Assembly: GCA_947453205.1 (NCBI GenBank) | Contig: CANGFT010000001.1 | Span: 1 to 64,000 of the forward strand | Reading direction: 5' to 3' | Source of the DNA: Beijerinckiaceae bacterium | GTDB taxonomy: Bacteria > Pseudomonadota > Alphaproteobacteria > Rhizobiales > Beijerinckiaceae | Length of the DNA: 64,000 nt | In this document: positions 22,238 through 54,961 of the stretch, piece after piece | Layout of the letters: the number at the start of each line of letters is the position of its first letter | Position numbering within the stretch: the stretch's first letter is position 1 | Program-made: the position numbers and the translations under genes | The notes under the pieces: generated by a model | The model's database searches: none | What the model was told of the DNA's origin: nothing | Seen by the model: the letters and a program-made list of their open reading frames with translations, nothing else

Positions 22238-22957
22238 TCAATCCGCTTCCTGCATCCATGTGCGAAGCTGCGCGAGGGCGGCTTTCTTGAGTTGCGACAC
22301 GCGCCCGACGGTGACGGAAAGAACCTCGCTGATTTCCTCGAGGTTGAGCTCCTCGACATAATAGAGCTGCAGCACGAGGGCTTCGCGCTCCTTGAGACGT
22401 TTGAGGTGCCGCGCCAGCGTGGCGCGCAATTCATCCGCCACAAGCGCGCTCTCGGGCGTGTGGCCTTCGTCCACGAACCAGACGGAATGGTCGTCGTAGA
22501 CTTCATCGAGCGACTTGTTGAGCGATGACGTCGTCTTGTCGCGCCATGACTGCAGTTCGGCGACGCTGATGCCAAGCTCCGCAGCGACAAGCTCGCGGTT
22601 CGCCGGATCGCCACCCGCCGCCTTCACGGCGAGTTCGGCGATGTTGATCTGCGCGCGACGCTGCACGCCAAGGCGGGTCAGGGTCAGGTTCTTGCGCAGA
22701 TGGTCCGTCAGCGCGCCACGGATGCGCACGGCCGCGTAGCTGGAGAAGCTGGCCTGGCCGAGATCCTGAAACCGTTTGGCCGCCTCCACGAGCGCGACCA
22801 TGCCGATCTGCACGAGATCGTCGATTTCGAAGACGTCACGCACGCGTCCATGGATCTGCCATGCGATCTTGCGCACGAGCTGCATATGCGAGCGCACGCG
22901 TTGTTCGATTTCCCGCGGGTTCGGGCTTGTCGCTACATATGACTGTGTGGCCGTCAT
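22238..22957 (-). CDS. fliA: Flagellar sigma factor FliA (sigma-28)
   Basis: A 239-residue sigma-70-family factor of the FliA/WhiG class, with no sigma region 1. Region 2 has HMQLVRKIAWQIHGRV, FEIDDLVQIGMVALVEAAKRF and FSSYAAVRIRGALTDHLRKN. Region 4 has LKEREALVLQLYYVEELNLEEISEVLSVTVGRVSQLKKAALAQL. It directs RNA polymerase to late flagellar promoters and is held back by FlgM (29612-29902). Its ATG overlaps the flhG stop (ATGA), so it is the last gene of flhA-flhF-flhG-fliA. Confidence 0.95.
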   Translation of the reverse strand: MTATQSYVATSPNPREIEQRVRSHMQLVRKIAWQIHGRVRDVFEIDDLVQIGMVALVEAAKRFQDLGQASFSSYAAVRIRGALTDHLRKNLTLTRLGVQRRAQINIAELAVKAAGGDPANRELVAAELGISVAELQSWRDKTTSSLNKSLDEVYDDHSVWFVDEGHTPESALVADELRATLARHLKRLKEREALVLQLYYVEELNLEEISEVLSVTVGRVSQLKKAALAQLRTWMQEAD

Positions 22958-23784
22958 TGGATGGCCCCCTGCGGGACGATGGAGCCCCTGGCGAAGAACA
23001 TGTCGTCGTCTTCGTTGATCGGCGTCGCCTGGGGGCCGGCGATCATGGTCCCGAGAGACGTGATGGCCTGAGCGGCCTTGGAGTCCGGCGCCGATACGAG
23101 CGGGGGAACGCAGTTGTTGACGCTCGCCAGAAGATGGTCGTCTTCAGGAATCGTGGCGACATGGTAGAGATTGGCGGTGAGGAAGCGATCAACGATCCCT
23201 TTGAACCGCTTGAACACATCCCGGCCATGGGCCTCATCGCGGGCGAGGTTGACCACGATGTCGAAATGCGTCACTCGCCCGAACTGGCTGAGCACCTTGA
23301 TGCAGGCGTAGGCGTCGATGAAGGCTGCGGGCTCGCCCACGACGACGACGAGAACGCGGTTGCATGCGAAGACGAAGTCGAGAACATTGTCCTCGATTCC
23401 CGCCGCCGTATCGACCACGAGATAGTCGAACTCGGTCGAGAGCTCACGCAAGGAGCGGATGATGCGATGCCGGCTTTTCGTCGACATGTTCATGAGCTCG
23501 TTGAGCCCGCTGCCGCCGGAGATGAGCTTGAGGCCCATGGGGCCATCGGTGCAGACCTGGCTCAGGGGCAGATCGGCCTCAAGCGCGTCCACGATGGTCT
23601 GCTTGGGGCTGAGACCCATGAGGATATAAGCGTTCGAAAGCGACAGATCCGCATCGAACAGCACGACGCGCTTGCCGAGTTTGCAAAGCGAAAGCGCGAG
23701 ATTGACAGCGATGTTCGTCTTTCCGACGCCGCCTTTGCCGCTCGTGATGGCGATCGCCTGACCTTTGTTTATGACTTTGGTCAT
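22954..23784 (-). CDS. flhG: Flagellar number regulator FlhG (FleN), MinD-like ATPase
   Basis: A 276-residue ParA/MinD-type ATPase with a deviant Walker A (SGKGGVGKTNIAVNLA), the switch I/II areas VVLFDADLSLSNAYILMGL and DYLVVDTAAGIEDNVLDF, and VVGEPAAFIDAYACIKVL. In polar flagellates FlhG counteracts FlhF and FleQ-type activators to limit flagellar number. The gene follows flhF by five bases and overlaps fliA. The C-terminal ~40 residues lack an obvious MinD-type amphipathic membrane helix and end NEDDDMFFARGSIVPQGAIQ. Confidence 0.93.
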   Translation of the reverse strand: MTKVINKGQAIAITSGKGGVGKTNIAVNLALSLCKLGKRVVLFDADLSLSNAYILMGLSPKQTIVDALEADLPLSQVCTDGPMGLKLISGGSGLNELMNMSTKSRHRIIRSLRELSTEFDYLVVDTAAGIEDNVLDFVFACNRVLVVVVGEPAAFIDAYACIKVLSQFGRVTHFDIVVNLARDEAHGRDVFKRFKGIVDRFLTANLYHVATIPEDDHLLASVNNCVPPLVSAPDSKAAQAITSLGTMIAGPQATPINEDDDMFFARGSIVPQGAIQ

Positions 23785-23789
23785 TCCGA

Positions 23790-24947
23790 TTAAACCTCTG
23801 CGGGAGCGGCGGGGAGGAGGGAGCCACGAATGAGCTGGTCGAGGTCCTCAGGTCCGGGTTCCGAGAGGCCGCGTGTCAAATGTGAGGTGGTGGAGAGGAA
23901 GGCGATCTTTGCGTTGCGCAGGCTGAGCTGCCCCAGCATGGCGGCCGTGGGGCTGCCTTCTGAAAGCTTTGTGATGGCGATGGCTTCAAGATCCTTGTAG
24001 CGGTCGATGATGCTTGTGGCCGCCTCGCGCGAGACGCTTGCGGGCACAACGCCAATGCGCGTGATAGGCGCGATGCGTTCGGCGTTCTCCTGCAAAACCT
24101 CGGAGATGCGCGCGCAGTCTTCTGGCGCGCTTGGCATGTCGACGAAGACATAAATCCGCTGGTCGATGCTCTTGATGAAGTCCGCCAATTCATCGGGATG
24201 GTCGATGTCGATGGTCGGCGCATCAAGGATGCGGCCATAGGCGCGCAGGTCTTCGGCTGCGCCAAAGCGGCTCGAATGCGCGTTGACGAGCGTCACGCGC
24301 GCATTGGGCTCGGTCATGCGCAGGCGGGCGATCATCTGCGCCAGCAGCGTCGTCTTGCCGACGCCCGAGGGTCCGAGGGCCACAACGACGCGTGGGATGC
24401 TCAGCAGCTTGTCAGCGTCGGGATAGGCGAGGCGCCGGGCCAGGAAGCCGCCGAATTTCTTGTCGGCGTTCTCCTGGTCATAGGCGCCGGACTGCGCGAG
24501 GAAGATCGCGATCAGTTCGGGGCTGGCGCCCGCCGTCGAAAGCGCATTTGTCATCAGGCTGCAGCTCAACATCGCCTTGATTTCCGCGACGGTGTTTTCG
24601 ATCGCCGTGATGCGCGTCTCATCCACGGCGGGGCGAGGCCTGTAGGGATTTTCAGGTGCGGGGCTCGGCGCCTTCTGGGCGCGCTCCCCATAACGCGCGA
24701 CCTCGCGCGCGCTCGCCAGGAGCGAGGCGAAATCAGCCTGGGCCTTCTCCTTGGGGTTCGGGCGAAGGCCGCGCTGCACCGAGTCCAGCGTTTCCTCATC
24801 ATCGTCTTCGCCCATGCCAGCGACGATCTCAATGCCGCCGTTGACGCGCCGCGTCGAATAGATGCGGGCCTCGCTGCCCAGCTCCTTGGTGATCTTGGCC
24901 ATGGCTTCGACGCTGTCAGCGGCGAAGACTTTCATGCGATTCATCAT
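23790..24947 (-). CDS. flhF: Flagellar placement GTPase FlhF with altered G motifs
   Basis: A 385-residue SRP-type GTPase. Residues ~1-45 are the FlhF N-terminal region (KVFAADSVEAMAKITKELGSEA), ~50-130 a linker, and ~185-380 the NG domain. The P-loop GPSGVGKTT (192-200) is intact. The family's DTAG (G3) is replaced by DMPS (270-273), the G2-area Asp of the TDSYRxGA pattern is replaced (NAHSSRFGA), and G4 reads TKLSE (326-330). FlhF marks the cell pole for basal-body assembly. The residue changes suggest poor or absent GTP hydrolysis, which is inference. Located between flhA and flhG. Confidence 0.9.
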   Translation of the reverse strand: MMNRMKVFAADSVEAMAKITKELGSEARIYSTRRVNGGIEIVAGMGEDDDEETLDSVQRGLRPNPKEKAQADFASLLASAREVARYGERAQKAPSPAPENPYRPRPAVDETRITAIENTVAEIKAMLSCSLMTNALSTAGASPELIAIFLAQSGAYDQENADKKFGGFLARRLAYPDADKLLSIPRVVVALGPSGVGKTTLLAQMIARLRMTEPNARVTLVNAHSSRFGAAEDLRAYGRILDAPTIDIDHPDELADFIKSIDQRIYVFVDMPSAPEDCARISEVLQENAERIAPITRIGVVPASVSREAATSIIDRYKDLEAIAITKLSEGSPTAAMLGQLSLRNAKIAFLSTTSHLTRGLSEPGPEDLDQLIRGSLLPAAPAEV

Positions 24948-40067: not shown

Positions 40068-41393
40068 CTAGGGCAGGAGCGTCTGGAGCCGCGCTTCGCT
40101 TTCAACGAAGTTGGAGCGCTCCTGCATGCCCTGGGCGATATAGCCGACGAGTTGCGGGTGGAGTTGGAACGCGGAGTCAAGTTCCGGATCCTGGCCTGCC
40201 TGATAGCCGCCGAGCAACATGAGGTCGCGATTCTGCTCCCACAGGCTGAGATAGCGGCGGAACTTGCGCACCCGCGCCACATGGCTCGGGGAGACGCAGT
40301 CGACCATGGTGCGGCTGATGGAGGCGTTCACGTCGATGGCGGGGAAGATGCCTTGTTCGGCCTGCTTGCGCGACAACACTATATGGCCGTCAAGAATCGC
40401 GCGCGCAGTATCGACAATGGGATCGTTGGTGATGTCGTCGCCGTCGGCGAGAATGGTGTAGACGCCAGTGATGCTGCCGCCGGTCTGTCCATCAAGACCC
40501 GCGCGCTCCAGCACCGAGCCGATCAGCGAAATGACGGAAGGCGGATAACCCTTCGTCGTGGGATGCTCGCCAAGGGCGAGCCCGAGTTCACGCTGGGCAT
40601 GGGCGACGCGCGTCAACGAGTCGATCATGAGCAGCACATGCTTGCCCTTCGATCTGAAATATTCAGCATAGGCGGTGGCGCGATGCAGGCCGCGCAGACG
40701 CAGCACCGGAGATTGGTCTGCGGGAACGGCGACGACCGACGTATGGGCGAAGGAGGGAGCTGTGGAAAGCTCCTCCACGAAGCCCGCGACTTCACGGCCA
40801 CGTTCGCCGATGAGGCCGATGATGACGACTTCCGCCTCAGTGTAGCGCGCGATGCACGACAGCAGCGATGATTTGCCTACGCCGCTGCCCGCGATGATGC
40901 CGATCTTCTGGCCACGCCCCACCGTGAGCAAACCGTTCAGCGCGCGCACGCCGACATCGAGCGTTTCGCGCACCGGCCTTCTGCGCAGGGGATTGACGCG
41001 CTCGCCGCGCAGGGGCCAATGCTCATTGAGATAAGCTGGGGAGAGACCGTCCAGTTCGCCGCCCGCGCCATCAAAGACGCGGCCGAGAAGTCCATCGCCA
41101 ACCTGCACCACATCAGCGCGCTGCACAGTTTCGACACGCGCCCCCGCGAGCAGGGGCGCAGAGCCGCCTGTCAGAACCATGACGGTGTAATTGTCGAGAA
41201 AGCCGATGACTTCAGCTTCGGCCCAGCCGCCGTTCTCGCAAGCCACGCGGCATTCCGTGCCGACCGACGCGGGAAAGGAGCTTGCATGGACGATCTGGCC
41301 GTCATAGCGCCGCACGCGACCGGCGGCGTTGGTGACTCTGCTGGCCTTAACGCTTTGCAGGCGCCGATCAAGAACGGCAGTCATGTCTTGCAT
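40068..41393 (-). CDS. fliI: Flagellar export ATPase FliI
   Basis: A 441-residue F1-beta-like ATPase. Key parts are the P-loop GIIAGSGVGKSSLL, the Walker B region KHVLLMIDSLTRVAHAQRELGLALGEHPTTKGYPPSV, and SITGVYTILADGDDITNDPIVDTARAILDGHIVLSR. It powers chaperone release and substrate entry at the export gate. It follows fliH by two bases. Confidence 0.97.
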   Translation of the reverse strand: MQDMTAVLDRRLQSVKASRVTNAAGRVRRYDGQIVHASSFPASVGTECRVACENGGWAEAEVIGFLDNYTVMVLTGGSAPLLAGARVETVQRADVVQVGDGLLGRVFDGAGGELDGLSPAYLNEHWPLRGERVNPLRRRPVRETLDVGVRALNGLLTVGRGQKIGIIAGSGVGKSSLLSCIARYTEAEVVIIGLIGERGREVAGFVEELSTAPSFAHTSVVAVPADQSPVLRLRGLHRATAYAEYFRSKGKHVLLMIDSLTRVAHAQRELGLALGEHPTTKGYPPSVISLIGSVLERAGLDGQTGGSITGVYTILADGDDITNDPIVDTARAILDGHIVLSRKQAEQGIFPAIDVNASISRTMVDCVSPSHVARVRKFRRYLSLWEQNRDLMLLGGYQAGQDPELDSAFQLHPQLVGYIAQGMQERSNFVESEARLQTLLP

Positions 41394-41395
41394 GT

Positions 41396-42244
41396 TCAGG
41401 AACCCCGAATGTCCGACAACATGGGAGCGTCTTCATAGTCGAGATCGCGTGACGAAAGATGAAATGCGCCGGACTGCAGCGCGTCATCCTCGATGATGCG
41501 GATCTTCTCGAAGATCTCGTTCTCCTGCATCAGCGGTTGCAGCGCCAGCAGATCGTGCGGATTCATCGCCAGCGTGAATTCGGCGCCGGCCTTGGTGAAC
41601 ATTTCGGCTGCAGTCTTGATTCGCTCCACATAGACATCCGGCATCTCCGCGAAAACGGCGCCGAAGAGATCCTGTGCGATGCGGCGGACATGATGCGCCA
41701 TGATGTCGGCGTTGCGTTCGACGGCGTCTGCCGCCAGCGTCGTGATCTGGGCCTCCAGCTTGCGCAGAGTCGAGATGGTCGCGCTGAGTTCACGCCGCGT
41801 CGCATCGACGCCCTGCTGATAACCAAGGTTTCGCCCATCTTCGCGCGCCTGATCGATGGCGGCGATGATTTCTTCCGCGCTGGGTCCGGGCGGCTCTGGC
41901 GGCGGCGGCGCCTTTGGCGCCGGGGCAGGGCGGGCAGGAGCGGTTGGCGCAGCGGCTCCGGCGGCCTCTGCAGCCGGCGACTGAGCCTCCTCGGCTTCGG
42001 CCTGCGCGGCGTCATCAACGACCGCGTTCTCGTCTTCGGGCGCCGCCTCCTGTTCGGCGGCCTGGTCCGGCGCCGGTGGCGGGTTCTGCTTGCTTGGCGC
42101 AGGCTTGAAGCTTTTGCGCCCCCACGGCACGAACTCGGCGTCCGGGTCCGAGCCGTAGCGGTTTTCTTCCAGATAGTCGCCGCCCTTGGGCAGCAGATCC
42201 GGGATCTGCGAAAGTGAGATGGTGCGTTGCGCTGCTTCAGACAT
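41396..42244 (-). CDS. fliH: Flagellar export ATPase regulator FliH
   Basis: A 282-residue protein. Residues ~30-125 are Ala/Pro/Glu-rich low complexity. The C-terminal ~150 residues have the FliH coiled coil and the AxxxG-like run around EEIIAAIDQAREDGRNLGYQQGVDATRREL, followed by the stator-like domain. FliH holds FliI near the C-ring and inhibits it until docking. The ATG at 42244 overlaps the fliG stop by eight bases (ATGTCTGA); a Met seven codons upstream is less likely. Confidence 0.88.
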   Translation of the reverse strand: MSEAAQRTISLSQIPDLLPKGGDYLEENRYGSDPDAEFVPWGRKSFKPAPSKQNPPPAPDQAAEQEAAPEDENAVVDDAAQAEAEEAQSPAAEAAGAAAPTAPARPAPAPKAPPPPEPPGPSAEEIIAAIDQAREDGRNLGYQQGVDATRRELSATISTLRKLEAQITTLAADAVERNADIMAHHVRRIAQDLFGAVFAEMPDVYVERIKTAAEMFTKAGAEFTLAMNPHDLLALQPLMQENEIFEKIRIIEDDALQSGAFHLSSRDLDYEDAPMLSDIRGS

Positions 42245-43277
42245 AGTCTTCGCCACGTCCAGCAAGGACCATTGTGCCGGCGTCCGACAGCTTGCGGGCG
42301 ATGGCTACGATCCGCTTCTGAGCCTCTTGAACCTCGGTCACGCGCATGGGGCCCTTCGCCTCCATTTCATCAACGATGGCGGCTGCTGCGCGTTGCGACA
42401 TACAGCCAAGGATCTTGTCGCGCAGACGCTCGTCCGCGCCCTTGAGCGCAATGGCCAGATCGCTCGGCTCGACGTTGCGCATGAGCACGCCCAGGTTCTT
42501 GTCGTCGACGGCCAGAAGGTTGTCGAAGACGAACATGTTTTCCTGAATCGCCGTCATGAGATCCTTGTCCAGCTTGAACAGGTCTCTCATGATCCGACCT
42601 TCCTGCGCGGCTTGCGTGAAGTTCATGATCTTGGCGGCGGCCTTGACGCCGCCGATCTTCGAGGCGCGCAGCGAAGTGTTCGCCTGGAACTGGAGCTGCA
42701 TCACGCGCTCCAGCTGTTCGATCGCCTCGGGCTGCACCGAATCCAGGGTGGCGATGCGGTGCAGAACCGCGTGCTGGATGTTTTCCGGCAGCAGGATCAG
42801 AACGTCGGCGGCGACGGCGTAATCGAGATGGGCGACGATGAGGCCGATGATCTGCGGATGTTCCCCTTCGATCATTTCCGCAATGGACCTCGCGTCCATC
42901 CATTGCAGAATTTCGATTCCCTTGGCGCTGCTTGAAGGCGTGATGCGCGTGAGCACGCTGCCAGCCTTGTCTTCGCCCAGAGCCTTGACCAGCATGCGGC
43001 GGATATAGGCGTCGGCGCCAAGGCCGACGCTCGTCTGCGCCTTGATGATGGCAAGGAACTCGTCGAGCACGACATTGACGGTGCGTTGATCGACTTCCGT
43101 GACGGAATACATCGCGCTGCCGAGCTGCTGAACCTCACGCGGGGAGAGGTTCTTCATGATTTCCGAGGCTTCATCCTCGCCCAGGAGCAGCATCAGGATG
43201 GCGCATTTCTGCGTACCCGACAGCAGCCTGATGGCGTCGTCGTCGGCCTCGGGGGGTGTCGCCACTGCTTCAGCCAT
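42237..43277 (-). CDS. fliG: Flagellar motor switch protein FliG
   Basis: A 346-residue armadillo-type protein. It has LSGTQKCAILMLLLGEDEASEIMKNLSPREVQQLGSAM, the EHPQ motif (EGEHPQIIGLIVAHLD) and the C-terminal torque helix area (LAIALKGADERLRDKILGCMSQRAAAAIVDEMEAKGPMRVTEVQEAQ). FliG links the MS ring to the C ring and meets MotA. It follows fliF by 21 bp. Confidence 0.96.
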   Translation of the reverse strand: MAEAVATPPEADDDAIRLLSGTQKCAILMLLLGEDEASEIMKNLSPREVQQLGSAMYSVTEVDQRTVNVVLDEFLAIIKAQTSVGLGADAYIRRMLVKALGEDKAGSVLTRITPSSSAKGIEILQWMDARSIAEMIEGEHPQIIGLIVAHLDYAVAADVLILLPENIQHAVLHRIATLDSVQPEAIEQLERVMQLQFQANTSLRASKIGGVKAAAKIMNFTQAAQEGRIMRDLFKLDKDLMTAIQENMFVFDNLLAVDDKNLGVLMRNVEPSDLAIALKGADERLRDKILGCMSQRAAAAIVDEMEAKGPMRVTEVQEAQKRIVAIARKLSDAGTMVLAGRGEDYV

Positions 43278-43298: not shown

Positions 43299-45020
43299 TT
43301 AGTTCAGATCGCGTTGGATGAGGGACTTCAGCACCGCAGTGACGCGCGTGGCATCGTCGCCCACCAACATTCGGATCAGGGTGACCTTATCATCGTAGGT
43401 ATTGGCGGTGTCCAGCATGTCAGCGGAGATCGCCGGCTTCTTGGGCTTGAGCCGCGCCTTGATTTGTTCAAGGCTCTCGCCCTCACGCACCTCGATGGTT
43501 TCGCCATCGCCCAGCACCGGCTCATCGGTGCGCATGGAGGCGGTCATGGACTGGTCGAGGAGGCGCTCGAGGAAGGGCTTCAGGGCGCCAAGGACAACCA
43601 CGCCAAGGATCAGGACGATGGCGATCTGCTTGATGGCGTCTTCAAGCCAGGGGGCGTCATACCAGCTGCGGCCCTGATACTTCTTTTCTTCCGCAAAGCT
43701 GCTGGAGATGATGGTGAGTTTGTCGCCGCGGTCCGCATTATAGCCAATGGCTTCCTGCAGGAGTTGCGTCAGGCGTGTCTTCTCCTCATCGCTGATCGGC
43801 TTCTCCACGACCCGGCCGTTTTCATCGACGGTGGTGCCGGAGCGCAGCACGACGGCGAGGGTCAGGCGCTTGACGTCGCCGGTGGCGCGACGGGTCGAGC
43901 GGACCTCCTTGCTCACCTCGAAATTGCGGACGGTGGTGCTGGACTTGTTACGAGTCGTGTCGCCCGACGCAGCGCTTGCATTCGCTGGCGGCGTCGCGGT
44001 GATCGCAGGCGTCGTGGGCGGCGAGTTCGAGGCGGCGCCGGGAACGCCGCGCGACCTGCCTTCAGCCGACTCTTGGATCGACTCCTGCTGCGAGCGCAGG
44101 ATCTGGTTCGTCGGGTCGAAGATCTCGTTCGTTTGTTCGGTGCGCGTGAAGTCGATGTCGGCGTTCACTTCCGAATTGAAATTGCCAATGCCGATGATGG
44201 GCGTCAGCAGATTGGCGACGCGCTCACGCAGGATCTTTTCGACCTGGCTCTTGTATTCAAGCTGCTGCGAGGAGAGGCCCATTTCGGCGTCGCGGCTGGG
44301 ATTGGTCAACAGGCCGCCCGACTGGTCGACGACTGTGACGCTGGCCACAGGCATGTAGGGAACGCTCGAACTCACGAGATGGGTGATGGACTGCACCTGG
44401 CCGACCGACAGGCTGCGTCCGGGCGCGAGGCGAAGGAAGACGGATGCGGAGGGCGGCGTCTGATCGCGCACGAAGGCCGAACGCTCGGGAAGCGCCAGAT
44501 GCACGCGCGCGCCCTCGATGTCGCGAATCTCCATGATGCTGCGCGCAAGCTCGCTTTCCTGCGCCTGTTTCAGTTTGACCTGCTCCACCGCCCGGCTCGA
44601 GCCCAGCGGCAGTTGGGTCAACAAATCATATCCGGTCACTGAGGCTTTTGGCAGGCCAGCCGCAGCCAGCTGCATTTTCGCCCGGTAATAGTCATTGCGC
44701 GGCACCAGCAACTGTCCGGTCGCCCCGTCGAGCTTTCCCTTAATGCCCTGGGCCTCGAGGTTCTGCATGACGAGCGCCTTGTCTTCCTCGCTGAGGTGAG
44801 GAAAGAGCTGCGTCATGGCCGGCTCGCGCATCATGAAGATGGCGGCAAGGCCTACGATCATGATCAGCCCCACCAGAATGATCGGTGTGGCCCGAACGAT
44901 CGCTGGCTGCCTCAGAAATTCCTGGGCGCTCGCGAGCCCCCGCGCAAGCTGGGGTCCAAGCGGGCCCAAGCCAGCCGGCGTCTGAGTTGCAACAGGGTTG
45001 ATGTCTGACACGGATGTCAT
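43299..45020 (-). CDS. fliF: Flagellar MS-ring protein FliF
   Basis: A 573-residue protein with two membrane helices (~45-65 and ~450-470). The ring-building domains lie between them, with LPHLSEEDKALVMQNLEAQGIKGKL, GYDLLTQLPLGSSRAVEQVKLKQAQESELARSI and ARVHLALPERSAFVRDQTPPSASVFL. The C-terminal FliG-binding tail is present (DKVTLIRMLVGDDATRVTAVLKSLIQ). FliF is the first basal-body structure made. It follows fliE by 34 bp. Confidence 0.97.
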   Translation of the reverse strand: MTSVSDINPVATQTPAGLGPLGPQLARGLASAQEFLRQPAIVRATPIILVGLIMIVGLAAIFMMREPAMTQLFPHLSEEDKALVMQNLEAQGIKGKLDGATGQLLVPRNDYYRAKMQLAAAGLPKASVTGYDLLTQLPLGSSRAVEQVKLKQAQESELARSIMEIRDIEGARVHLALPERSAFVRDQTPPSASVFLRLAPGRSLSVGQVQSITHLVSSSVPYMPVASVTVVDQSGGLLTNPSRDAEMGLSSQQLEYKSQVEKILRERVANLLTPIIGIGNFNSEVNADIDFTRTEQTNEIFDPTNQILRSQQESIQESAEGRSRGVPGAASNSPPTTPAITATPPANASAASGDTTRNKSSTTVRNFEVSKEVRSTRRATGDVKRLTLAVVLRSGTTVDENGRVVEKPISDEEKTRLTQLLQEAIGYNADRGDKLTIISSSFAEEKKYQGRSWYDAPWLEDAIKQIAIVLILGVVVLGALKPFLERLLDQSMTASMRTDEPVLGDGETIEVREGESLEQIKARLKPKKPAISADMLDTANTYDDKVTLIRMLVGDDATRVTAVLKSLIQRDLN

Positions 45021-45054: not shown

Positions 45055-45351
45055 TCAGACAGGCATTGACATGATGTCTTTGTATGCGCTGAGGAGTTTG
45101 TTGCGGATCTGCATGGTCGCTTCGAAGGCGAGAGAGGCCTTTTCACGCGCCAGCATCACTTTGGTCACATCGACTTCCTTGCCGCTTTCAAAAGCCTGGG
45201 CGGCGTTGCCTGCTTCCGCCTGCGCCTGCGCGACCTGCGCAAGAGCTGCGTTGAAGTGGTGCCAGAAGTCGTTGTTGCTGGTGGCGCCGGCCTGCAGTTT
45301 CTGCTGGACGTTGCTTTGTATTTCGCGGGTCAGGTTTATGACATTTGCCAT
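45055..45351 (-). CDS. fliE: MS ring-rod junction protein FliE
   Basis: A 98-residue protein, usual for FliE, with DFWHHFNAALAQVAQAQAEAGNAAQAFESGKEVDVTKVMLAREKASLAFEATMQIRNKLLSAYKDIMSM. It links the MS ring to the rod and opens the fliEFGHIJ block. It starts 12 bp after fleT. Confidence 0.95.
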   Translation of the reverse strand: MANVINLTREIQSNVQQKLQAGATSNNDFWHHFNAALAQVAQAQAEAGNAAQAFESGKEVDVTKVMLAREKASLAFEATMQIRNKLLSAYKDIMSMPV

Positions 45352-45363
45352 GATTTTTTCTCC

Positions 45364-46524
45364 TCAGACGACAGCTGCGAGACGGCGTGGAGCCAGCTCT
45401 GTGACTTCGAACATCTCCTGGATTTCGAGCATGAGATGCTCGCTCAGAATCTGCTCGCCACCCGAAAGCACCAGCGCGCGCTGCAGCACATTCTCCAGCT
45501 CGCGCACATTTCCCGGCCACACATGCGCTTCGAGTTTCTGAATCGCTTCTTCGGTCAGCTCGGGCATCTTGGCGAAACCGCCAGCATGTTTGGCGAGCAG
45601 ACTGACTGCGATGGGAAGGATGTCGCCGGGACGCTCCTCCAGGGCCTTGGTGACCAGGGGGAAGACGTTGAGGCGGTAATAGAGATCCTCACGGAAGCGG
45701 CCGGCCTTCACCTCATGAAGCATGTATCGGTTTGATGTCGCGATGACCCGCACATCGACCGGAACCGGCTTTGAAGCGCCCAGGGGCGTGACTTCCTTCT
45801 CCTGCAGAACGCGCAGGAGCTTGGCCTGCAACGGCAGGGCCATTTCGGAAATTTCGTCGAGCAGCAGCGTGCCGCCATCGGCCGCACGGAAGATGCCTTT
45901 GTTGGGATGATGCGCGCCGGTGAAGGCGCCACGCTCATAGCCGAAGAGCAGCGCCTCAAGCATCGTGTCGGGCACGGCCGCGCAATTCACCGCAATGAAG
46001 GGGTTGCGGTTGCGCGGCGAGGCCCGGTGCAGGAAGCGCGAGAGCACTTCCTTGCCAGTGCCTGTCGGCCCGACCAGCATGACCGTGACATCGCTGGCGG
46101 CGACGCGGCGTGCAAGGCGCAGGAGATTGAAGGTCGAAGGGTCGCCCGCAGCAGCGCTCTGGTCCTCGTCGAGGAAGCGTGCTACAACTTCGGCTGTGAA
46201 CCGCCAGTTGTTGTCTGCGGGCCGCACGTGCAGGGTGCTTCCGTTGAATTCGCATTTCAACGAAAATCCCTTGCCTGCTTCAGTCAGCACGACAATCCGT
46301 TCAGCCTTGAGCTGGCGGCACCATTTCACGAAGCCTGTCGCATCTGCGGCGAGCTTTTTGGCTACGGCGTAGGACATCATCAAACCGCACTGCGGCCATG
46401 ATGTTTGCACCGCTCCGAGTTTGGCGAGCGTCGTGGTGTGGGTCTCATACCCGCGGTTGTGCAGGTGTGTGATCCAGGCCTCGGAGTCGGCCAATCCGTC
46501 GGTGACACAAAGAACTGCGCTCAC
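45364..46524 (-). CDS. fleT: Sigma-54 activator without DNA-binding domain (FleT-like)
   Basis: A 386-residue AAA+ activator. Residues ~1-125 are a divergent N-terminal domain without the phosphoacceptor pattern of a receiver. The AAA+ domain (~130-350) has Walker A GPTGTGKE, the sigma-54 contact loop ERGAFTGAHH, Walker B GTLLLDEISE and the VWPGNVRELENVLQRALVL arginine-finger region. The protein ends ~35 residues later with no Fis-type helix-turn-helix. The fleT-fliEFGHIJ arrangement equals that of R. sphaeroides Fla1, where FleT works with FleQ. The GTG at 46524 follows AGGAAGGG and sits below the sigma-54 site; the longer frame would start inside the promoter. Confidence 0.88.
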   Translation of the reverse strand: MSAVLCVTDGLADSEAWITHLHNRGYETHTTTLAKLGAVQTSWPQCGLMMSYAVAKKLAADATGFVKWCRQLKAERIVVLTEAGKGFSLKCEFNGSTLHVRPADNNWRFTAEVVARFLDEDQSAAAGDPSTFNLLRLARRVAASDVTVMLVGPTGTGKEVLSRFLHRASPRNRNPFIAVNCAAVPDTMLEALLFGYERGAFTGAHHPNKGIFRAADGGTLLLDEISEMALPLQAKLLRVLQEKEVTPLGASKPVPVDVRVIATSNRYMLHEVKAGRFREDLYYRLNVFPLVTKALEERPGDILPIAVSLLAKHAGGFAKMPELTEEAIQKLEAHVWPGNVRELENVLQRALVLSGGEQILSEHLMLEIQEMFEVTELAPRRLAAVV

Positions 46525-46561
46525 GGCATTTCCCTTCCTATTCGCGCTTCGCAGCAGGAGA

Positions 46562-46577
46562 AGCAACGGGTGAGCCA
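46562..46577 (-). promoter_or_regulatory. Sigma-54 promoter of fleT-fliEFGHIJ
   Basis: On the minus strand it reads TGGCTC-ACCCG-TTGCT, keeping GG and GC at exact spacing. The predicted transcript start is near 46550, about 26 bases before the fleT GTG. This would let FleQ-type activation switch on the partner activator and the basal-body genes together. Confidence 0.82.
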
Positions 46578-46845
46578 GAGGCGTAATCTTATTGTTACGT
46601 TTATTTATAAGTGTTTCTTTTTAGATTTAAGCTATTGTTTTTTAGATGTAATTTAATAAAACCCATTCTGGTGCTCATTCATATGATATCTCGCTCGCCA
46701 ATTTTTTCGTGGGTCGAAACTCAGATTGCGTCGTATATTCCGCAGTGTTCCTTGATTGTCTGACAGTTAGCAGTCAAAAACTCGACATGCTTAAAACGAG
46801 CCGTCCGAGATTCGATATTGGACTTCCTCTGGGTGCGGACCGCAC
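46578..46845. other. AT-rich regulatory region between fleT and fleQ
   Basis: This divergent intergenic stretch is far more AT-rich than the coding DNA around it, especially 46590-46665 with poly-T and TTTTTAGAT-type runs. It must contain the fleQ promoter and could hold activator sites for the fleT sigma-54 promoter. No sigma-54 site points toward fleQ, which agrees with FleQ being at the top of the cascade under a housekeeping sigma factor. I cannot place a convincing -35/-10 pair. Confidence 0.55.
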
Positions 46846-48030
46846 ATGACCAGAGAAGAGGTTCTCAGCTATCTTGAATTGCCAAGTCCGGCGATGCGTG
46901 AGGCGCTCGACCTCATTCTGCGCGTCGCGCCCTTGATGACGACCGTCTATATCAGTGGTCCCTCGGGCAGCGGCAAGGAATTCGCCGCGCGCGCGGTCCA
47001 TGCCTTCTCAAACAGGGCGGCCGCTCCCTTTGTTGCGGTGAATTGCGGGGCCATTCCGCGCGATCTGCTTGAGAGCGAATTGTTCGGGAGCGAAAAGGGG
47101 GCTTACACCGGGTCGGTGCGCACACGCCCGGGCCTTCTCGAGACCGCGGCGGGCGGCACCTTGTTTCTCGACGAACTTGGCGACATGCCGCTGGACATGC
47201 AGGTCAAGCTGCTGCGTGTTCTTGAAGACCGGCGTTTCGCCCGCGTTGGCGGCTCCCAGGAAATAAAAGCCGACGTGCGCCTCGTCTGCGCCACTCACCG
47301 CGACCTCATGCGGATGGTGGAGGAAGGGCGCTTCCGCGAGGATCTCTACTACCGCATCAATGTCTTCCCAATCGCCATGAAGGGGTTGGACGAGCGGCGC
47401 GAGGACATTCCCCGTCTTGTCGAACTCATATTAAAGCGTTTCCGCGGGCAGGGGGGCGTTGGCGAGTCGCCGAAATTCCAGCCCGGCGCCATCGCAGCTC
47501 TTCAGGCATCGTCATGGCCCGGCAATGTGCGTCAGTTGCGCAATGTGCTTGAGCGCTGCTGTGTGCTTTATCCCGGGCAGTTGGTGGGCAGGGTCGAGAT
47601 CGAGCGCATCGCCGCGCCCCGCAAGGCGATCGACCGTGTCGAGGAGACCATGGCCCTGTTCTCGTCTTTGCAGGGGCTTGGCTTTGGACCTTCGGTGGAG
47701 GCTGCTCCGGAGGCAGCGCCCGTATTCAATGAAGGCTCAGAGCCGAAGGCGCCGAGCGAGGCGCCAGCCGATCCCACTGTGGCGCTTGAGCCTGCGCCGC
47801 CGCTGGCGCCGGATTTGCTGAGCATACCCGGTGATGTCTCAGGGTTTTTGCGTGCGACGCCCGACTTCAACTTCCGCGATCACATGACCAAGATCGAGAT
47901 CGCCTTCATCAAGGGCGCCTTGTCAGAGATGAATGGCTCGGTGAGCGGGGCCGCGCGTGTGCTGGGTTTGCAGCGCACGACCCTTATTGAAAAGATGCGT
48001 AAATACGCGATTGATCGCGAGGAGGCTTGA
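46846..48030 (+). CDS. fleQ: Sigma-54 activator FleQ-like (with helix-turn-helix)
   Basis: A 394-residue AAA+ activator that starts almost directly with the ATPase domain and has no receiver or FleQ-type N-terminal domain. Walker A is GPSGSGKE (38-45). The sigma-54 loop reads GAYTGS (85-90) instead of GAFTGA. Walker B is GTLFLDELGD and SSWPGNVRQLRNVLERC is present. A Pro/Ala/Glu linker (~290-340) leads to a Fis-type helix-turn-helix, MNGSVSGAARVLGLQRTTLIEKMRKY. It can bind DNA and probably pairs with the fleT product. It is divergent from fleT and ends exactly against fliS. Confidence 0.88.
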   Translation: MTREEVLSYLELPSPAMREALDLILRVAPLMTTVYISGPSGSGKEFAARAVHAFSNRAAAPFVAVNCGAIPRDLLESELFGSEKGAYTGSVRTRPGLLETAAGGTLFLDELGDMPLDMQVKLLRVLEDRRFARVGGSQEIKADVRLVCATHRDLMRMVEEGRFREDLYYRINVFPIAMKGLDERREDIPRLVELILKRFRGQGGVGESPKFQPGAIAALQASSWPGNVRQLRNVLERCCVLYPGQLVGRVEIERIAAPRKAIDRVEETMALFSSLQGLGFGPSVEAAPEAAPVFNEGSEPKAPSEAPADPTVALEPAPPLAPDLLSIPGDVSGFLRATPDFNFRDHMTKIEIAFIKGALSEMNGSVSGAARVLGLQRTTLIEKMRKYAIDREEA

Positions 48031-54729: not shown

Positions 54730-54945
54730 GCGTGACCTCATCCATTCTTTTCCCGCCCGACTGCGGCGACATCATGGCCCCGGCGGCGCGCCTTCGGCAG
54801 ACCGAACAACCCTAAAATCCTGCGGACCGGAAATCCACCCAAAAGCATCCTCGCCCCTTAGGCAAGGCGTCAAAAGGCCGACATCCGCCTGGGCGGCTCT
54901 AAATTTCCTCATGCTTAACAGATGCTTGACGGGAATCCGCCTGCT

Positions 54946-54961
54946 TGGCCCCAGACTTGCT
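54946..54961 (+). promoter_or_regulatory. Sigma-54-like promoter before small orphan gene
   Basis: TGGCCC-CAGAC-TTGCT matches the -24/-12 pattern exactly as well as the fliD site does. It lies about 51 bases before the proposed start of the small gene at 55013. It is outside the flagellar block, so a chance match is possible. Confidence 0.5.

Follow-up and report, generated by a model that had tools for sequence, protein, structure and literature searches.

Hetero-oligomeric sigma-54 activators have been called rare, the FleQ/FleT pair of Rhodobacter (Cereibacter) sphaeroides being the flagellar case named in this context (PMC9542535). For its Fla1 system, it is reported that FleQ activates the fleT operon, that the FleQ/FleT complex serves the class III genes, and that FleT alone is inactive (PMC11999139, PMC7277832, PMC11655674). 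Both proteins are described as forming hetero-oligomers (PMC9542535, PMC11999139, PMC11655674), and the fleT operon is described as including fliEFGHIJ (PMC7277832). Two further systems share features with this pair. HrpR and HrpS of Pseudomonas syringae are described as co-dependent activators forming hetero-hexamers (PMC9542535), and FlgR of Helicobacter pylori is an activator reported to lack a DNA-binding domain and to act without binding DNA (PMC3930126).

Here we describe a fleQ/fleT pair located on a stretch of 64,000 nucleotides (in the following, the window) from a Beijerinckiaceae bacterium (GenBank assembly GCA_947453205.1, contig CANGFT010000001.1). With a probability of about 0.75, we infer a pair of the R. 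sphaeroides kind, in which FleQ would start the fleT operon alone, mixed rings would serve the later promoters, and the deviating FleQ loop GAYTGS would be a working variant. FleQ would bind enhancer DNA via its helix-turn-helix (HTH) and, together with the single sigma-54 of the cell, switch on the operon beginning with fleT and fliE, FleT not being needed at this stage. FleT, devoid of DNA binding, would join FleQ in mixed AAA+ rings acting on later flagellar promoters.

Domain content and gene order of the locus

The gene fleT (45364..46524, minus strand) encodes an AAA+ sigma-54 activator according to its open reading frame, Pfam content and AF2 model. Translation most likely begins with the GTG at 46524 and the gene ends at 45364, which gives 386 aa; some ORF calls extend to 46527, equaling one extra codon. 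Pfam assigned Sigma54_activat and AAA_lid_14 to FleT and detected no HTH; the AAA+ motifs are kept and the loop is GAFTGA. HTH_8 was found at E<=0.01 in 0/29 scanned FleT proteins, including the one of the window, which argues against a frameshift artefact. As the fleT stop is located only 12 nt before fliE, there is no space for a hidden domain 3' of the gene. A concealed DNA-binding domain or a frameshift at the fleT end, considered in the earlier note, is thereby ruled out.

The same note had FleT end right after its AAA+ domain. This holds for the GAFTGA loop and the missing HTH (Pfam, 0/29), but FleT is not a bare AAA+ protein: residues 1 to ~120 are modelled by AF2 as a region that folds separately, with an alpha/beta topology predicted at high confidence (mean pLDDT 89.6). 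A Foldseek search with this region yielded nothing at E<=0.001, and Pfam Response_reg was unmatched in the 29 FleT proteins. Among the top 50 Foldseek matches, 31 were counted as response-regulator receivers by their titles, with unrelated folds interspersed; the receivers include FleR (7w9h) with a TM of 0.54. Judged from the model, the region appears weakly receiver-like, a resemblance that does not prove its identity. The sequence of R. sphaeroides FleT, a protein described to be devoid of an N-terminal regulatory domain (PMC3162934, PMC9542535), contains a counterpart of it.

Adjacent to fleT and divergent from it, inside the flagellar cluster, lies fleQ (46846..48030, plus strand). It codes for an AAA+ sigma-54 activator of 394 aa, whose AAA+ domain starts at residue 14 and whose C-terminal Fis-type HTH covers residues 350-387 (Pfam HTH_8). 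ORF and Pfam data confirm what had been noted before, i.e., a Fis-type HTH, the loop GAYTGS and the lack of an N-terminal domain. In the alignment, the loop departs from the canonical GAFTGA of activators but retains T4 and G5. Both FleQ and FleT retain intact Walker A and Walker B motifs and an intact REDLYYR segment.

On the minus strand, fleT directly precedes fliE (45055..45351, Pfam FliE), the first structural gene after it, and fliF (43299..45020, Pfam YscJ_FliF). These are followed by fliG (42237..43277, minus; Pfam FliG domains), an ORF without Pfam match and fliI (40068..41393, minus; Pfam ATP-synt_ab and T3SS_ATPase_C). Elsewhere in the window (22238-24947), a sigma-70-like factor, a ParA/MinD-like ATPase and an SRP54-type GTPase are found side by side, which we name as probable FliA, FlhG and FlhF, respectively. 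The ATPase is a possible antagonist of FleQ.

Comparison with known systems and descent of the pair

To represent R. sphaeroides, we used genome G510, taken as C. sphaeroides based on one contig with 99.9% match to named plasmids and on its four rpoN genes. The alignment suggested in the earlier note revealed 51% identity over 338 aligned positions for FleT and 44% over 376 aligned positions for FleQ. Like the pair of the window, G510 harbors an HTH-less FleT with GAFTGA loop, a FleQ with HTH_8 and without N-terminal domain, and a sigma-54 site before fleT; the FleT proteins of both share one clade. The two systems differ in three respects: in G510 about 20 kb separate fleQ from fleT, which are adjacent and divergent here, the FleQ loop reads GAFTGA there and GAYTGS here, and four rpoN genes contrast with one. 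Homology and the order fleT-fliE-fliF-fliG-ORF-fliI agree with the earlier assignment to an R. sphaeroides-like pair with fleT before the fli genes. Moreover, the published reading of R. sphaeroides, homology and gene order together support, by analogy, the earlier proposal that FleQ may supply DNA binding to the HTH-less FleT in mixed oligomers, an idea already known in kind from R. sphaeroides. HrpR and HrpS both bind DNA, whereas the HTH of the present pair is confined to FleQ.

The top Foldseek matches of FleT are AAA+ structures of FlrC (58% identity), representing the gammaproteobacterial FlrC/FleR activators. The sole such row scanned (L108) carries Response_reg and HTH_8, whereas FleT has neither by Pfam. 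In a midpoint-rooted tree of 84 rows, selected from those at hand and with group labels of our own, FleT forms one clade (30 rows, 98/96) that includes R. sphaeroides FleT. This clade joins two HTH-bearing proteins of family f38 (100/100), and together they are nested among rows labelled FlrC. FleQ (23 rows) represents one group versus the other groups (100/100), but the support that separates it from three gammaproteobacterial FleQ-like rows is weaker (90/73). An identity of FleT as FlbD is ruled out by the separate groups in the tree, for which two (L026 and L028) of 14 intended FlbD loci gave no protein under the filter, and by the FlbD profile NCBIfam NF050807 (curated cut-off 750), where FleT (299.8) and FleQ (246.1) both score below.

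The HTH-bearing sisters of FleT in f38 (L184 9307-10569, L185 9189-10517 and L186 9195-10559, the protein of the latter standing outside the tree) precede fliE in 3/3 cases (Pfam), with fliF next in both tested. An upstream sigma-54 site was detected in 0/3, and the FleQ profile matched the AAA region only in the f38 genomes (3/3, E<=1e-70), none of which has a recognisable FleQ. This pattern suggests that FleT arose from an FlrC-type activator whose DNA-binding domain was lost in the presence of FleQ; with a single evolutionary event on the tree, the correlation between HTH loss and FleQ presence is suggestive only.

Predicted promoter, enhancer-like site and sigma-54

A predicted sigma-54 type promoter of fleT, TGGCTCACCCGTTGCT, was located by scan and conservation at 46562..46577 on the minus strand. 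Its core GCAA-N7-GCCA is unchanged in 12/12 aligned intergenic regions from the window's genus. A site with <=3 mismatches occurs at the same place before fleT in 11/11 genus members scanned, G005 being left out because its fleT is split between two contigs. All HTH-less relatives tested (28/28) exhibit a sigma-54 site before fleT with 1-4 mismatches, 26 of them with <=3; the sites of L099 and L187 were placed relative to an assumed start that is possibly too early. Across the window, 14 sigma-54-like sites with <=2 mismatches compare with about 5.7 in 20 shuffles, and six with <=1 mismatch compare with 0.25.

Located 195 bp upstream of the fleT promoter element is a FleQ-box-like site, GTCAAAAACTCGAC (46773..46786, plus strand). 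Its pattern GTCAAAAA-N3-GAC is unchanged in 12/12 aligned genus intergenic regions and has a single exact match in the window, with 0 in 20 shuffles; near matches with 1-3 mismatches were found in ten intergenic regions outside the genus, a count without shuffle control. The site is three mismatches away from the P. aeruginosa FleQ-box consensus GTCaNTAAAtTGAC, quoted in PMC6120874, and five such sites occur in the window versus 1.7 in shuffles. The same source calls the FleQ box unreliable genome-wide in P. fluorescens. Judged by sequence and conservation, the site is a probable enhancer of fleT. A further FleQ-box-like site (one mismatch) is found at window 54869-54961 on the plus strand, where a sigma-54-like site (two mismatches) follows 77 bp downstream.

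A search with Sigma54_DBD returned one match in G000, and all 16 genus genomes with FleT, G000 among them, have one match each. A second, dedicated sigma-54 behind the altered FleQ loop is therefore ruled out. Within all FleT-bearing genomes searched, 45/47 contain a match; in G202 and G781, where FleT and FleQ are present, Sigma54_DBD remained unmatched, owing to either an incomplete genome or a divergent sigma-54.

Variation and probable competence of the FleQ loop

Comparison of the loops revealed a clear difference between the partners. Within the genus, FleT has GAFTGA in 16/16 cases, while 13 of the 15 FleQ proteins have GAYTGS and two have GAFTGS, so that S6 is found in 15/15 and Y3 in 13/15. 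S6 is absent (0/46) from the FleQ-like proteins outside the genus, whose 46 distinct cores, all from FleT-bearing genomes or loci, comprise 38 GAFTGA, six GSFTGA, one GAYTGA and one GAFSGA. The HTH-less FleT-like proteins outside the genus (n=52, possibly including a protein clipped at a locus end) split into 42 with GAFTGA and ten with GSFTGA, keeping F3 in 52/52. The outside-genus counts depend on automatic size and motif filters, with L304 and L309 as doubtful FleQs. The GAYTGA protein (L281, 1375) indicates that Y3 arose at least one further time. Random decay is unlikely to explain the loop change, as S6 is fixed in 15/15.

Several lines of literature bear on whether such a loop can function. 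NorR F264Y is reported to retain activity and, in PspF, only the change from F to Y to permit activation (PMC2941729), both being single changes. TouR with Y3 and PrpR with S6 are listed as experimentally validated activators (PMC3162934). Desulfovibrio DVU0679 has exactly GAYTGS and is listed with the activity-compatible variants (PMC4641369), its target being taken from another study without a loop test. Given this tolerance of Y3, S6 and GAYTGS in other activators, FleQ is probably competent for sigma-54 contact, an argument by analogy in which loop activities are taken from other proteins. The altered loop can probably be considered a lineage-specific working variant confined to one genus.

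A second argument comes from the promoter. The conserved sigma-54 promoter and the FleQ-box-like site at fleT imply that a competent activator is needed before FleT is made. Based on these sequence features, FleQ is probably required to act at a time when FleT is not yet present, although a leaky FleT starting its own promoter by feedback would weaken the argument for FleQ acting alone. The fixed loop (S6 in 15/15, Y3 in 13) also leaves room for a more speculative and rather doubtful variant, in which FleQ would be a weak starter, the FleT loop would do most of the sigma-54 work, and FleT would boost its own expression. Such a system could have emerged from a former FlrA-FlrC-like cascade by one loss of a DNA-binding domain and a weakened partner loop; if true, commitment to the flagellum would be controlled by a switch with positive feedback.

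According to the stricter view of the earlier note, GAYTGS leaves the sigma-54 contact to FleT. In that case FleQ could not engage sigma-54 at all, every active ring would need the GAFTGA of FleT, and FleQ would serve as a DNA anchor only. The asymmetry on which this view builds is real, both in the genus (GAFTGA in 16/16 FleT versus S6 in 15/15 and Y3 in 13/15 FleQ) and in the invariant F3 of the outside FleT-like proteins. We nevertheless regard it as improbable and did not retain it: other activators work with Y3 or S6, and the complete GAYTGS is listed as activity-compatible; a sigma-54 promoter of its own precedes fleT; and 38/46 FleQ-like proteins outside the genus have GAFTGA. In R. sphaeroides, FleQ has GAFTGA and FleT is its partner nonetheless, which means that a broken loop does not explain the need for FleT there.

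That FleT acts from solution in the manner of FlgR, with FleQ being unneeded, appears very unlikely. The precedent of an activator without DNA-binding domain exists (PMC3930126), and three FleT-bearing genomes lack a detected FleQ; however, FlgR is reported to act without DNA binding, whereas R. sphaeroides FleT is reported as inactive without FleQ (PMC11999139), and fleQ and fleT adjoin and co-occur in the genus. It is hardly credible that FleQ stands outside sigma-54 activation altogether, as a repressor or sigma-70 factor: non-GAFTGA loops mark the non-sigma-54 relatives TyrR, DhaR and HupR, but changes at positions 3 and 6 are listed from validated activators in the same source (PMC3162934), and FleQ keeps T4, G5, Walker A, Walker B and the REDLYYR segment. 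For a mixed FleQ/FleT ring as preferred here, the genus-specific FleQ loop would offer a natural test of each partner's share in the sigma-54 contact.

Distribution of the pair

The survey places the FleQ/FleT pair in several alphaproteobacterial groups and hints at its origin. Within the genus, where many genomes are incomplete drafts, FleT is present in 12/37 genomes, the window's own counted. FleQ (E<=1e-75) was found in 15/51 genus genomes, corresponding to 11 of the 12 FleT genomes plus four genomes beyond the 37, which carry an adjoining fleT. Hence fleT is present in 15/15 FleQ-bearing genus genomes, in G005 in its split form. The FleT genome without FleQ match is G006, where the contig stops 858 nt upstream of fleT.

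Of 385 evenly sampled class genomes, 12 yielded a hit at E<=1e-118. Nine of these hits are HTH-less FleT (the window's counted), each with a short tail after the lid, and three belong to family f38 and were excluded from the FleT count due to their HTH_8. Locus L107 (Thalassobacter stenotrophicus) lies in genome G459, and within the family of this genome, which we take to be the Rhodobacteraceae, FleT occurs in 25/394 genomes and FleQ (E<=1e-100) in 22/25 of the FleT-bearing ones. In the other three (G489, G682 and G848; L203, L216 and L205, respectively), FleQ was not found beside the HTH-less FleT, reflecting an assembly gap or a real absence. Both HTH-less FleT and FleQ (E<=1e-100) are present in 3/3 f34 genomes, and FleQ is adjacent to HTH-less FleT in 4/4 f134/f44 genomes; G164 has a weak FleQ candidate only (3e-97, loop GAFSGA). 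Among the best 80 of 590 matches, both genes were found at loci from SAR116, the PS1 clade and Thalassobacter stenotrophicus. Literature on the pair outside R. sphaeroides was not recognised among the open-licence matches listed, judged by titles and abstract starts; FleT, FlrC and FleQ were found to be mentioned jointly in one paper.

Some FleQ proteins deviate from the common pattern. Those encoded next to fleT at L224 (8210-9304), L233 (8003-9100) and L093 (8610-9788) have a drifted recognition helix without RTTL, and G784, G794 and G683 have a second FleQ-like gene elsewhere in the genome. Both genes also occur on a plasmid of Octadecabacter arcticus, pOA238_118 (L190), within a fleQ-fleT flagellar cluster that carries its own rpoN.
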